A stretch of DNA of 40,649 nucleotides. Source: Gammaproteobacteria bacterium. GTDB lineage: Bacteria > Pseudomonadota > Gammaproteobacteria > GCA-2400775. The DNA lies in contig JAADIY010000029.1 of the NCBI GenBank assembly GCA_013151045.1, positions 1 to 40,649 on the forward strand, written 5' to 3'. Shown one piece after another: positions 20,506 through 35,184 of this stretch. Every line of letters begins with the position of its first letter. Position 1 is the stretch's first letter. The notes beneath the pieces are model-generated. The model had not been told where the DNA came from and searched no databases. It saw only the letters and a program-made list of their open reading frames with translations. The position numbers and the translations under genes were made by a program.

Positions 20506-21642
20506 TTATGCGGATGTCGAAACAAATGAGCCACGTTGTTGAATAAATTGAATAGTAATAAAGCGCACGCCGATTTTGGAGAAAGGGCCCATAGCTTTAC
20601 AGTATTTCAATTCGGCGATGGCTTTGAAGTCTTCAGCATCAATTTTTATTCGGCTGCCGACGACTAGCGGTTTTTTGCTAATAAAGCTTAGACCGGTGGG
20701 TGAGACATCTGATAATGCTATACGCTCAGGTTGGCTTGGCCATAATGTGTACATGGCAGCAGGCTTTTTTACCTTGGCTCTTGCCACGCTGCGCCGAGGT
20801 ACGTTCTCATAGGCTTTTTCAAGCAGAATAAGCGGGCTACGGCAGACATCACAATATTCGTGTTGATGGGCGTAGCCATTATGTGAATATGGCGTTTTGC
20901 AAAAAAAACATTGTTGTCCAGCTTGCCTACCATAGGCATGAGCGTTGTTGTGGTGAGTAGATTTTTTATAAGCTTGATAGGCAGAGTAAGGGTTGTTGGT
21001 ATTGGCTTGGCGTTGCTGCTGGTGTTCTTGTTGTTCGGTGCTTGATGCGTTTTTTTTTCTTTGTTCTGCTTGAGGCTTTTCTTGGTTTTGTCCTGAAGCT
21101 TGTTTTTGATGCGGCTGTTTTGGTTTAGCCCCAGCACTATCGTTATTTGCCGTATTTTGTTTTTTCCCTGCTATGAGGTATTGATCATATTGTCGTCGTT
21201 TTACTTTGTTATTCAGTGTTTTCCACGCTTCCTCAAGCAGCGCATGGTTGATTTGTGGATTGCGTTTTAGCAACTTATAACTGGCTTCGATAACCACTAG
21301 TTCCGCGTCGGGTTGAACTTGCAGTACGCGGTAGTAATTGCGCCGGCTACCTGATTGTTTGCGTTTTACTTTGAATGCATGAGGTGTTTTGCCCAAATGT
21401 CCGCGAGATACAGTTTCTATGTCGCTTTTAGTAAATAGTTTGCGATCATAGGTTGCGCGTTTGGCTGGGTTACGTAGGGTAGCGTAAGCCGCATTGATAT
21501 GACTGGCATTCCATTCATCACCACCAAGATCGGGGTGGTGATGCAACTTTTGCATAAGCGTGCGGTAGCTTAGCTTGATTATTTCAAGCGAGGCATCGGG
21601 TTGCACTCTGAGTAAGCGATAAAAATTACGACGGCTTTTCAT
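20506..21642 (-). CDS. J-domain, degenerate J-domain, zinc ribbon and PilZ protein
   Basis: This 378-aa protein has four parts. Residues 5-68 are a J domain with an intact HPD triad (36-38), so it could stimulate a DnaK. Residues 99-157 repeat the same opening (SRRNYYRVLQVQPDAE versus SRRNFYRLLRVQPDAS) but lack HPD: an internal duplication that has lost DnaK stimulation. Residues 160-240 are a low-complexity Gln/Asn/Lys linker. A CxxC pair at 245/248 and another at 264/267 form a zinc ribbon. The C-terminus (283-370) is a PilZ domain with both c-di-GMP motifs, RSVAR (284-288) and DVSPTG (312-317). It is cytoplasmic, with no signal or membrane segment. The likely role, inferred, is a c-di-GMP-responsive co-chaperone or scaffold. 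No diguanylate cyclase lies nearby. Confidence 0.85.
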   Translation of the reverse strand: MKSRRNFYRLLRVQPDASLEIIKLSYRTLMQKLHHHPDLGGDEWNASHINAAYATLRNPAKRATYDRKLFTKSDIETVSRGHLGKTPHAFKVKRKQSGSRRNYYRVLQVQPDAELVVIEASYKLLKRNPQINHALLEEAWKTLNNKVKRRQYDQYLIAGKKQNTANNDSAGAKPKQPHQKQASGQNQEKPQAEQRKKNASSTEQQEHQQQRQANTNNPYSAYQAYKKSTHHNNAHAYGRQAGQQCFFCKTPYSHNGYAHQHEYCDVCRSPLILLEKAYENVPRRSVARAKVKKPAAMYTLWPSQPERIALSDVSPTGLSFISKKPLVVGSRIKIDAEDFKAIAELKYCKAMGPFSKIGVRFITIQFIQQRGSFVSTSA

Positions 21643-21747
21643 GTATCCGTTAACGAAATTGTTTAATTCGCTAACGGCTTGATTTTGCTAAAGTTGAGCT
21701 AAATTACGCTTATTATGTGATTCAGGCCGTCACTAGGAAAGCTGGGC

Positions 21748-32299: not shown

Positions 32300-33088
32300 T
32301 TAGCTTTTAGTTTTTCCGCTAGGCGTTCTGCTAAGTGGATGCTCAGGGTAGTTAAGCTGTAGCACACTTAGGCTCTCATTCGATAAATAGTGCATACCCA
32401 GGCGCTTGTATGTGCGGACTAATATTGCCAATGCTTCAGCAGTGGCATTCGATTGCGGGAGTTTCTCAATAATATATTTTGCACGGTTAATTGCTGCCAC
32501 AAAGGCGCCGCGTTTGACGTAAAACTGTGCGACGTGTAATTCATGGTCAGCCAGAATATTGCGCAGATAAATCATGCGTTGTCGTGCATCAGCACTGTAT
32601 TGGCTTTCCGGGTATTTGGTCACTAACTCTGAAAAATATTGAAAGGACTCGTTTGACGTACGCGGGTCTCTTGTCGCTGGATCAAAAAAACGAATTGGAC
32701 CAAATTTTCCTGATCTATCGTCAAAGGTCGCTAGGCCACGCAGGTAATAAGCACGATCAACCTTTTCATGGCGTGGGTTCAGCCGAATAAAGCGGTTGGC
32801 TGAGCTTAGAGCGAGTTCAGGTTCAGCGTTATCAAGATGGACAAAGCCGATATCGAGTTGAGCACGCTGGGCAAATGGGCCAAACGGAAAGCGTTTTTCT
32901 AGTTCTTGGAAGTATTCAACAGAGAGATCGTAGTTTTTCTTACGGTAGGCGGCGCTGGCTTCGTCATAAAGGCGCGCGGCACTCCAGTTGGAAGGGATAT
33001 CGTCTTTGTCTGGAAATAATGAGCAGCCACTGCTTAGTAATATGGATGTAAAAAGGAGTAGGGCAAGTAGAGGACGCAAGCAAGACAC
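32300..33088 (-). CDS. bamD: Outer membrane assembly lipoprotein BamD
   Basis: BamD is the essential TPR lipoprotein of the BAM complex that inserts beta-barrel proteins. The 262-aa precursor has a lipoprotein signal ending LLSSG-C (C22), then tetratricopeptide repeats over about 40-245 (LYDEASAAYRKKNYDLSVEYFQELEKRFPFG; AYYLRGLATF). Length and motifs match E. coli BamD (245 mature). The start is GTG at 33088 with no clear Shine-Dalgarno; TTG at 33079 would also leave a full signal peptide. It lies downstream of two BamD-like genes on the same strand. Confidence 0.94.
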   Translation of the reverse strand: MSCLRPLLALLLFTSILLSSGCSLFPDKDDIPSNWSAARLYDEASAAYRKKNYDLSVEYFQELEKRFPFGPFAQRAQLDIGFVHLDNAEPELALSSANRFIRLNPRHEKVDRAYYLRGLATFDDRSGKFGPIRFFDPATRDPRTSNESFQYFSELVTKYPESQYSADARQRMIYLRNILADHELHVAQFYVKRGAFVAAINRAKYIIEKLPQSNATAEALAILVRTYKRLGMHYLSNESLSVLQLNYPEHPLSRTPSGKTKS

Positions 33089-33172
33089 GAGGATATTCCA
33101 ATTGATCTAAACGATTAGTATAGCAAAGCTACTGCGATTTTGATGTCGCATACATTACAGATTTAATCGATG

Positions 33173-34477
33173 TTATTTGAGCTTACTGTGAATATCTGAC
33201 ATTGGTCGCACCCACGGATTGGGCGCTTGGAGTTCAGCGCTAAGGCCTTGTAATGCCAGTAGAGCCTCATTTCTACTGCGGTAATTGCCATAGGTTAAGG
33301 TATACCAATCACCGTTCTCATTGCTCGTGCGGAAATAATGCGCTTCGTCAGCAATGTCGTGGGTATCGATATATTCTTGTAATGCATTTTCGTTGTTGGT
33401 GCCAAGTAATTGCAGGGTATAGCCAGTACTAGGCTGTGATAAATACCAGGTTTCTTGGTCATTGCTAGCCCTGGCGATGACGAAATCGCTAGGGTCGGCA
33501 GTATTTGGAGTAATAAGCTGTAAGGGGCTTTCGTCTGCGGCTTCTTTAATGCTTCTGTGTTGAATGTCTCGGGGTTGCGGAATGTTCGCTTTGGCAGCCG
33601 CTACCGCTGAGCTCGGCGCGCCATTTTGTTTTTGTTTAAGTTTAAACGGGTCAACACGCGTCACTTCATTACCACTATTGTGGTTGCTAGCAATGTGGTG
33701 ATAGTCCGGGTATTTTCGCTCTAGCGCTTTGCGTACGTCAGTGGCATTGATCAAATCACCCTGCGCAGTAAATGCGTCAATCATTACCGAGTATGCCTCA
33801 GGCGTTGATTCGGAGCGCGCATAATTTTTTATGACGTATTCAGCTCGGGCAATAGCTTCTTTATACTTATTAAAGGATAAGGCCGTTCTGGCGGCCGTGA
33901 TCTCATGTTCGGCAAGTTTGCTATGCAGAACTTCCATACGTATGCGCGCATCTTGATTGTATTTGCTGTTAGGGTAAAGGCGGACCAATTCAGCGAAAGA
34001 TTCAAATGCTTTACGTGCCATGGTGGTCCGAGCATTGCCGGTGAGGTCACGATTTTGTAGTTGTCGAAGACCACCGTTATAGCGAGCGAGGCCACGCAAA
34101 TAATAGGCATAGTCAATGAGCGAATGTTCAGGGTAGGTTTGAATGAAAGCGTTACTGGTCTCAACAGCAGGTTCGCTATCGCCCAATTTATAGTGAGCAT
34201 AACCGCTGCCTAGCAAAGCTTGTGGTGCGCTTTTGTCTTCTGGATATTGTTTGCGCAGACGGGTGAATTGCGCAAGTGCTTCGTCATAGTCGCCACTATC
34301 GACAGCACTTTGACCGCGAGCATAGATTGTCATCGCCGGGTTTTCAGACTTGCTATTGGGGCTGTGAATAGCGTTCGTTGGTGTTGTGCTAGGAGTGCTT
34401 GAACACGATGCGCAAATCAGAATCACTAAACCTATTAGCGTGAATTTATGCACTGATTTAGCTGTTCTGCTTTTCAT
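33173..34477 (-). CDS. BamD-like TPR lipoprotein with C-terminal SPOR domain
   Basis: This 434-aa protein has a lipoprotein-type signal (helix 11-21, ICAS-C at C25; Cys at -3 is unusual), a BamD-like TPR region (about 45-255: YARGQSAVDSGDYDEALAQF, AYYLRGLARY, AFESFAELVRLYPNSKY), a disordered linker, and a C-terminal SPOR domain (about 350-434: STGYTLQLLG, then WYTLTYGNYRSRNEA). SPOR domains bind denuded glycan at the septum. I chose ATG 34475-34477 since it leaves a clean signal peptide; the frame is open to 34564 but that part overlaps the neighbouring pseudogene. The inferred role is an envelope scaffold at the division site linked to beta-barrel assembly. Confidence 0.85.
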   Translation of the reverse strand: MKSRTAKSVHKFTLIGLVILICASCSSTPSTTPTNAIHSPNSKSENPAMTIYARGQSAVDSGDYDEALAQFTRLRKQYPEDKSAPQALLGSGYAHYKLGDSEPAVETSNAFIQTYPEHSLIDYAYYLRGLARYNGGLRQLQNRDLTGNARTTMARKAFESFAELVRLYPNSKYNQDARIRMEVLHSKLAEHEITAARTALSFNKYKEAIARAEYVIKNYARSESTPEAYSVMIDAFTAQGDLINATDVRKALERKYPDYHHIASNHNSGNEVTRVDPFKLKQKQNGAPSSAVAAAKANIPQPRDIQHRSIKEAADESPLQLITPNTADPSDFVIARASNDQETWYLSQPSTGYTLQLLGTNNENALQEYIDTHDIADEAHYFRTSNENGDWYTLTYGNYRSRNEALLALQGLSAELQAPNPWVRPMSDIHSKLK

Positions 34478-35184
34478 TAAGTAGTTGATGGTCAATTTCT
34501 CTTTGTGAAAGCGATTTATGTAAAGAATCTGCTTTAATTTGTTTGCCCTGAGCTGCGAAAGCACCGATCATAATGGCACACGCCTTATGTACTCAGCGCG
34601 CGCAATTGCTTCATGGTTTTTATCTTGTTCCGATACTCTTTTGGCCAAAACCAATTTGTTATCAGCAAGGCTATTAAATAATGCTTCCATTCGTGTGCGT
34701 GAATCTTCGTGATATTGGCTGTTTGGGTAGTACGCCACTACCTGTAAAAAAGATTCAAACGCTTCGCGTGCCAAACTATCGCGATTATTGCTGACTACTT
34801 CGTTACTTTGCAACTTTTTGATTCCCGCACTATAACGCGCTAAGCCATGTAAATAAAAGGCATAATCGAGTAACGCGTAACTTTTCTTTGGCTCAATAAA
34901 GTTGCTGGTAATTTTTGCTGAGCTTTCTACACCGCCTAATTGGTAATGTGCGTAAGCAATACTTAGCAGCGCCTGTGGTATTCTTTGGTCAGTTGGAAAG
35001 TTATCTATATAATGTCGTGACAATATGTGAGTGCTGGCGAGTATTGACCTAGGCTGATCGCATTTTGTCCGCGAGAATACCTGATTTGCTGATTTGCCCT
35101 CGTTTGCAAGCATTGTATTGCTCTTGATGGGTGTTTCTCCTCTGTTATTAGAAAATGGCTTGGGTAAGTCGGCGGTGACTTCAT
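34458..35184 (-). pseudogene. Decayed third BamD-like TPR gene
   Basis: Three reading frames are needed to follow homology with the neighbouring SPOR-type gene. Frame one (about 35184 to 35008) gives IRYSRGQNAISLGQYSPALTY. A TA dinucleotide surplus in TATATA (35006-35011) shifts to frame two (DNFPTDQRIPQALL onward through AIARAEY), which stops at 34568. A third frame (34571 to 34458) continues the homology with MIGAFAAQGKQIKADSLHKS against MIDAFTAQGDLINATDVRKA. About 16 residues (an out-of-frame deletion) are missing between frames two and three. No lipobox or SPOR domain remains. The tail overlaps the start of the intact copy by 20 bp. This is tandem duplication followed by decay; one sequencing error could not explain both lesions. 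Confidence 0.8.

Follow-up and report, generated by a model that had tools for sequence, protein, structure and literature searches.

Fusions of a PilZ domain to part of the Hsp70 machinery are known from Myxococcus xanthus, where a DnaK or DnaJ domain is present in 4 of the 24 PilZ proteins (PMC8316039). Moreover, the PilZ-DnaK chaperones CsdK1 and CsdK2 of this species bring CdbS, a protein that binds c-di-GMP, to higher levels (PMC10313047). Here we analysed a stretch of 40,649 nucleotides from a gammaproteobacterial contig (the window), which carries a gene for a protein that also combines such parts (Table 1). A sequence-only reading had seen in this protein a J domain with its HPD at residues 36-38, a second J copy lacking HPD (99-157), a Gln/Asn-rich linker, four cysteines as two CxxC pairs (245-267) and a PilZ domain with RSVAR and DVSPTG.

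Table 1. Features of the co-chaperone locus, in positions of the window.
Feature	Position	Strand	Basis or remark
Gene for the 378-aa J1-J2-linker-zinc ribbon-PilZ protein	20506..21642	-	ATG start; stop codon included
J1, J domain, residues 1-72, with invariant HPD at 36-38 (21529-21537)	21427..21642	-	Pfam, AlphaFold2, 53/53 relatives
J2, J-like domain, residues 98-160, in which the HPD loop is missing and the opening and last helices remain	21163..21351	-	Alignment, model, selection
Gln/Asn-rich disordered linker, residues 161-241; sequence drifts	20920..21162	-	pLDDT, identity, pN/pS
Zinc ribbon, residues 245-267, CFFC...CDVC	20842..20910	-	Four Cys in 47/53 relatives
PilZ domain, residues 284-370	20533..20793	-	Pfam in relatives, model, Foldseek, conserved motifs
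PilZ motifs RSVAR and DVSPTG	20779..20793 and 20692..20709	-	
Predicted 11-bp RNA hairpin, 4 nt upstream of the ATG	21647..21677	-	Fold, and same-place hairpin in the G002 orthologue

All of these elements were recovered. Pfam returned a DnaJ match (E=3.6e-17) with two matched stretches, the best at residues 6-66, together with a spurious Ctr match and a weak PilZ match (309-367, E=0.044) that lies under the curated cut-off. PilZ was matched at E<=0.01 in 43/53 family members (best 2.3e-9). The CxxC pairs start at residues 245 and 264, the two PilZ motifs at 284 and 312 as had been placed, and 26 of the 81 residues of the linker are Gln or Asn. With its J fold and an HPD in the helix II-III loop, this is a probable class C J-domain protein. 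It stands outside DnaJ classes A and B, as Pfam found no DnaJ_C client-binding domains in it and it has two CxxC pairs only, not the zinc region of four CxxCxGxG repeats. Pfam likewise gave no HSP70 match, and thus no DnaK nucleotide-binding domain, in the window protein. For the four family members searched against NCBIfam, only models of other proteins were returned, those for DnaJ included and all far under their cut-offs, and none for this architecture.

The open reading frame is a real gene, since another species of the genus (genome G002) carries an orthologue, L003, at 61-62% identity in the same order pyrE - gene - TauE/SafE-family gene, and pN/pS between the two is 0.34 overall. A full-length match was absent from the other three genus genomes searched, two of which are 89-95% complete. 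A scan of genome contigs with the single protein as query gave no matches; with an alignment as query, it gave 53 loci with organism names. A class-level scan was positive in 16/369 genomes, the window's own included, bringing the distinct proteins to 65. The J - zinc ribbon - PilZ core is therefore the architecture of a family of at least 65 members. Its commonest form, of about 240 aa, consists of a J domain, a short linker, a zinc ribbon and PilZ, the majority of members having no second J copy. Nearly all sources are MAGs; they include Halieaceae, Woeseiaceae, Granulosicoccus and Ectothiorhodospiraceae within the Gammaproteobacteria and, beyond them, Acidobacteriota, Nitrospirota, Gemmatimonadota, KSB1 and Candidatus Anammoxibacter. 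The family is sparse, because a family-profile scan of 398 genomes of the phylum found full-length matches only for the genome of the window and for a tandem member already known. Six further matches in that sample covered the J end alone and were rejected as family members.

Two organism labels within this set deserve comment. L058, on a contig whose MAG bears the label 'Halobacteria archaeon', is very close to L050 of the Ectothiorhodospiraceae, with end branches of 0.01-0.03 changes per column and neighbours in common, so L058 is probably misbinned or mislabelled. L037 (labelled Thermodesulfovibrio) and L040 (Deferribacteres) are also close and share four downstream genes in identical order, which suggests either a doubtful label on one of them or a transferred block.

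In the 53-member alignment, HPD of J1 is present in 53/53 members, and adjacent J1 residues are likewise invariant. This makes it very improbable that J1 is a DnaK-independent binding module in a protein devoid of co-chaperone activity, even though engagement of DnaK cannot be proved from sequence alone. In PilZ, R284, R288 and G317 are found in 53/53 and S314 in 52/53, whilst position 312 holds D in 48 members, N in four and E in one. The five positions R284, R288, D312, S314 and G317 all rank within the top seven conserved of the 104 PilZ-region columns, and the PilZ signatures RxxxR and (D/N)xSxxG lie at their correct places. The zinc-ribbon cysteine quartet is kept in 47/53, its loss being confined to six members from Nitrospirota and Pseudomonadales/Oceanospirillaceae (L039, L044, L047, L055, L056 and L059). 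Because these six retain HPD and the arginines, the zinc ribbon is dispensable where HPD and the ligand arginines are not. One member with two J copies, L034, has ELTPVG in place of DxSxxG and is a candidate for lost or weakened c-di-GMP binding.

The same residues bear on whether PilZ senses anything. Failure to bind c-di-GMP is known for some PilZ proteins, whether they have the motif or not (PlpA and the founding PilZ are examples), and the domain could accordingly be a constantly active docking module, with c-di-GMP absent or merely stabilising the fold and the protein acting as a fixed J adaptor between DnaK and a partner that binds PilZ. We consider this doubtful, as invariant arginines and a near-invariant DxSxxG over several phyla are hard to explain without selection for the ligand, and the host carries a large c-di-GMP network (see below).

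An AlphaFold2 model of the window protein, built on the 53-member alignment, contains both the J fold and the PilZ barrel whose absence would have told against the sequence-only reading. Block pLDDT is about 87-97 for J1, J2 and the barrel. J1 is predicted as helices at 7-10, 19-32, 43-57 and 59-72 (block pLDDT 90-97 past residue 10), J2 is folded at 103-168 (94-96), and residues 294-366 of PilZ form a barrel of six strands. Confidence in the zinc ribbon is moderate and uneven (65-91). Confidence is very low at 172-239, with pLDDT <50 at 172-189 and 191-239, as expected of a disordered stretch. In a Foldseek search against the PDB the top matches were solved PilZ domains (BcsA 5ej1/4p00, MotI 5vx6 and YcgR-c-di-GMP 5y6g; probability 1.00), with J domains ranking after them, and many of the matched PilZ structures are c-di-GMP-bound. 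With a pTM of 0.42 for the full window protein and 0.56 for a compact 226-aa relative, the models contain no confident packing of J on PilZ and no visible intramolecular gate. This weakly favours models in which control would be exerted via a client or partner rather than by a direct gate within the chain.

The second J copy is restricted to seven proteins (L001 of the window, L003, L033, L034, L095, L097 and L100). In the window protein, the J1 x J2 alignment scores 119, against a mean of 22.9 and a maximum of 48 over 2000 shuffles. None of the seven (0/7) has HPD in J2. Leaving out L100, which is too diverged for alignment throughout, the HPD loop is deleted in 6/6, with the opening helix, the following helices and a YD ending retained. 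An HPD at residue 184 of L070 was rejected as a second J domain, as it sits in a low-complexity linker. As to whether J2 arose several times, a plain tree needs 3 changes, but a tree with the seven tandem members in one clade scores higher (AU p 0.81). These trees allow a single origin of the tandem form, without demonstrating it.

When the window gene is compared with L003, pN/pS comes to 0.25 in J1, 0.26 in J2, 0.26 in the zinc ribbon and 0.23 in PilZ, whereas the two linkers have 0.53 and 0.60. As synonymous sites are almost saturated, only the contrast between segments can be used. The higher value belongs to linker 161-241, where amino acid identity is 31%. Since pN/pS in J2 equals that in J1 while the linkers drift, J2 is held by selection and is not decaying. 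This weakens the earlier suggestion of a folded spacer; its alternative, a client-binding site, still stands. Lacking HPD, J2 should not trigger DnaK, and it most likely serves J1 as a structural or regulatory partner, or provides a docking site. The roles that remain are a partner or inhibitor of J1, as Pam16 is for Pam18, a docking site and a rigid module. The window protein does resemble the Pam16/Pam18 pair in that a J-like domain without HPD lies next to a J domain of the active type, and Tim16/Pam16 inhibits the ATPase stimulated by Tim14/Pam18 (PMC2695266). In the tandem subgroup, J2 could by analogy autoinhibit J1 until released by c-di-GMP or a client, a proposal compatible with our preferred reading and in keeping with a domain that has lost its HPD loop yet is predicted to fold and is constrained. 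We nevertheless hold it to be rather unlikely, as the majority of relatives have no J2 and J1-J2 contact is not confident at the full-length pTM.

Upstream of the start codon, the predicted hairpin has z = -3.15. The orthologue has a hairpin in the same place (G002:C34:58827-58857) in which a stem A-U pair is replaced by U-A, a paired change, although its 71-nt stretch is no more stable than shuffles (z = 0.08). A pattern search gave one match per genome (G000, the window's own, and G002), each at the co-chaperone gene. The reversed control also matched (1 in G000, 2 in G002), and therefore the evidence is the position of the hairpin and not the match count. This could be a conserved RNA structure before the ATG, two sequences being too few for proof; it could cover the ribosome-binding region and could act in translation control or protein binding. 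An intrinsic terminator was rejected, as no T run follows the stem. Rfam gave no match near gathering score around the gene.

The 1.95-Mb genome of the host (95% complete) encodes one full-length Hsp70. Some 200 bases downstream on the same contig, a 384-aa frame carries the J domain that is strongest genome-wide, and the two are in all likelihood dnaK-dnaJ. Other J-domain genes include one for a 268-aa protein that is DjlA-like in layout, its J domain being C-terminal, and one for a protein of 254 aa in which a hydrophobic region lies at the N-terminus and the J domain at the C-terminus. For c-di-GMP, GGDEF was matched 23 times (in some cases by two fragments of a single domain), EAL 12 times and PilZ, apart from the window protein, 7 times, a large network for a genome of this size. 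Both arms of the proposed link, DnaK and a c-di-GMP network, thus exist in the host. Over the 53 loci, no neighbour gene is conserved except among close relatives, so that the gene behaves as stand-alone and its context names no client or pathway. Elsewhere in the window (32300-35113, minus strand), three adjacent genes all give matches to the BamD/YfiO lipoprotein family, and one of the three also has a SPOR domain.

Seven other PilZ matches in the genome also raise the idea that PilZ and c-di-GMP form the client side. DnaK would then be brought to other c-di-GMP receptors, or to a secretion or motility machine, and control their stability, as CsdK1/2 do with CdbS in the M. xanthus precedent (PMC10313047). 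This seems unlikely to us, given that the chaperone part differs (J rather than DnaK itself) and that variable neighbourhoods provide no genetic link to those genes.

Taken together, these data point to a class C J-domain co-chaperone that is governed by c-di-GMP and sends DnaK to a client, a reading to which we assign a probability of roughly one half. For it we count the invariant HPD and PilZ ligand residues, the c-di-GMP-bound PilZ matches, the fold confidence of J1, J2 and PilZ, purifying selection, the host DnaK and c-di-GMP network, and the CsdK precedent; against it, the example of PlpA, the missing conserved neighbour, the lack of confident J-PilZ packing, and L034 with its ELTPVG. 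The coupling of c-di-GMP to Hsp70 proposed from sequence is strengthened by the invariant residues and by DnaK, GGDEF and EAL in the host. The coupling itself stays at the level of inference, and this applies to the binding of c-di-GMP, the stimulation of DnaK, which way control runs, the client and the role of J2. J1 would dock on DnaK and set off its ATPase via HPD, whilst the C-terminal PilZ would hold c-di-GMP between its RxxxR arm and its DxSxxG strand. As the RxxxR arm closely follows ribbon and linker, starting 17 residues past the final zinc-ribbon cysteine, ligand binding could reorient the zinc ribbon/PilZ unit. This may expose a client docking surface or carry a client to J1-bound DnaK, the unit picking or freeing its client in response to c-di-GMP, and at high c-di-GMP DnaK would be directed to that specific client. 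A bolder version, an undescribed and widespread family of c-di-GMP-gated Hsp70 co-chaperones in one subgroup of which the HPD-less copy is a built-in Pam16-like inhibitor freed by the signal, is speculative and rather improbable. Were c-di-GMP to gate DnaK recruitment, the folding and turnover of proteins would come directly under a sessile/motile signal. The common form of about 240 aa, with no membrane segment apparent, is suited to purification and ATPase assay.

Lastly, we compared the protein with described systems. YcgR, BcsA, Alg44 and VCA0042 share with it the PilZ barrel, RxxxR and DxSxxG; they have other partner domains (YcgR-N, glycosyltransferase, membrane parts) and no J domain. 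With DnaJ (class A) and CbpA (class B) it shares an N-terminal J domain with HPD, and unlike them it is without DnaJ_C domains or a four-repeat CxxCxGxG region. AtcJ of Shewanella oneidensis is likewise a short J-domain protein with a dedicated C-terminal module and works with DnaK, but this module is a 21-aa extension for cold adaptation and not PilZ (PMC6715715). Tsrp1 of Rhodococcus, a c-di-GMP effector considered as a relative, proved unrelated. Tim14/Pam18 and Tim16/Pam16 offer a model for J1-J2 in their pairing of a J with an HPD-less J-like domain (PMC2695266), though they are two separate mitochondrial proteins where J1-J2 share one chain, and the likeness is a resemblance only. The M. 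xanthus PilZ proteins with a DnaK or DnaJ domain are likened here by domain content alone (PMC8316039). CsdK1 and CsdK2 also fuse PilZ to a part of the Hsp70 machine, and CsdK2 keeps the c-di-GMP motif; they carry DnaK itself, not a J co-chaperone, and a zinc ribbon is not mentioned in the accessible part of the source (PMC10313047). In M. xanthus, PilZ and the DnaK system have been shown to meet in a single pathway, and the J - zinc ribbon - PilZ family places the receptor on the co-chaperone. The statement that no characterised protein has this domain order holds for the open literature searched (subscription papers being outside its scope), which yielded no functional account of J - zinc ribbon - PilZ proteins; it is qualified by the core family of at least 65 members and by the M. 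xanthus PilZ-DnaK/DnaJ proteins (PMC8316039, PMC10313047). The joining of PilZ to a DnaK or DnaJ domain was thus already known, and the J - zinc ribbon - PilZ architecture is a variant of it.
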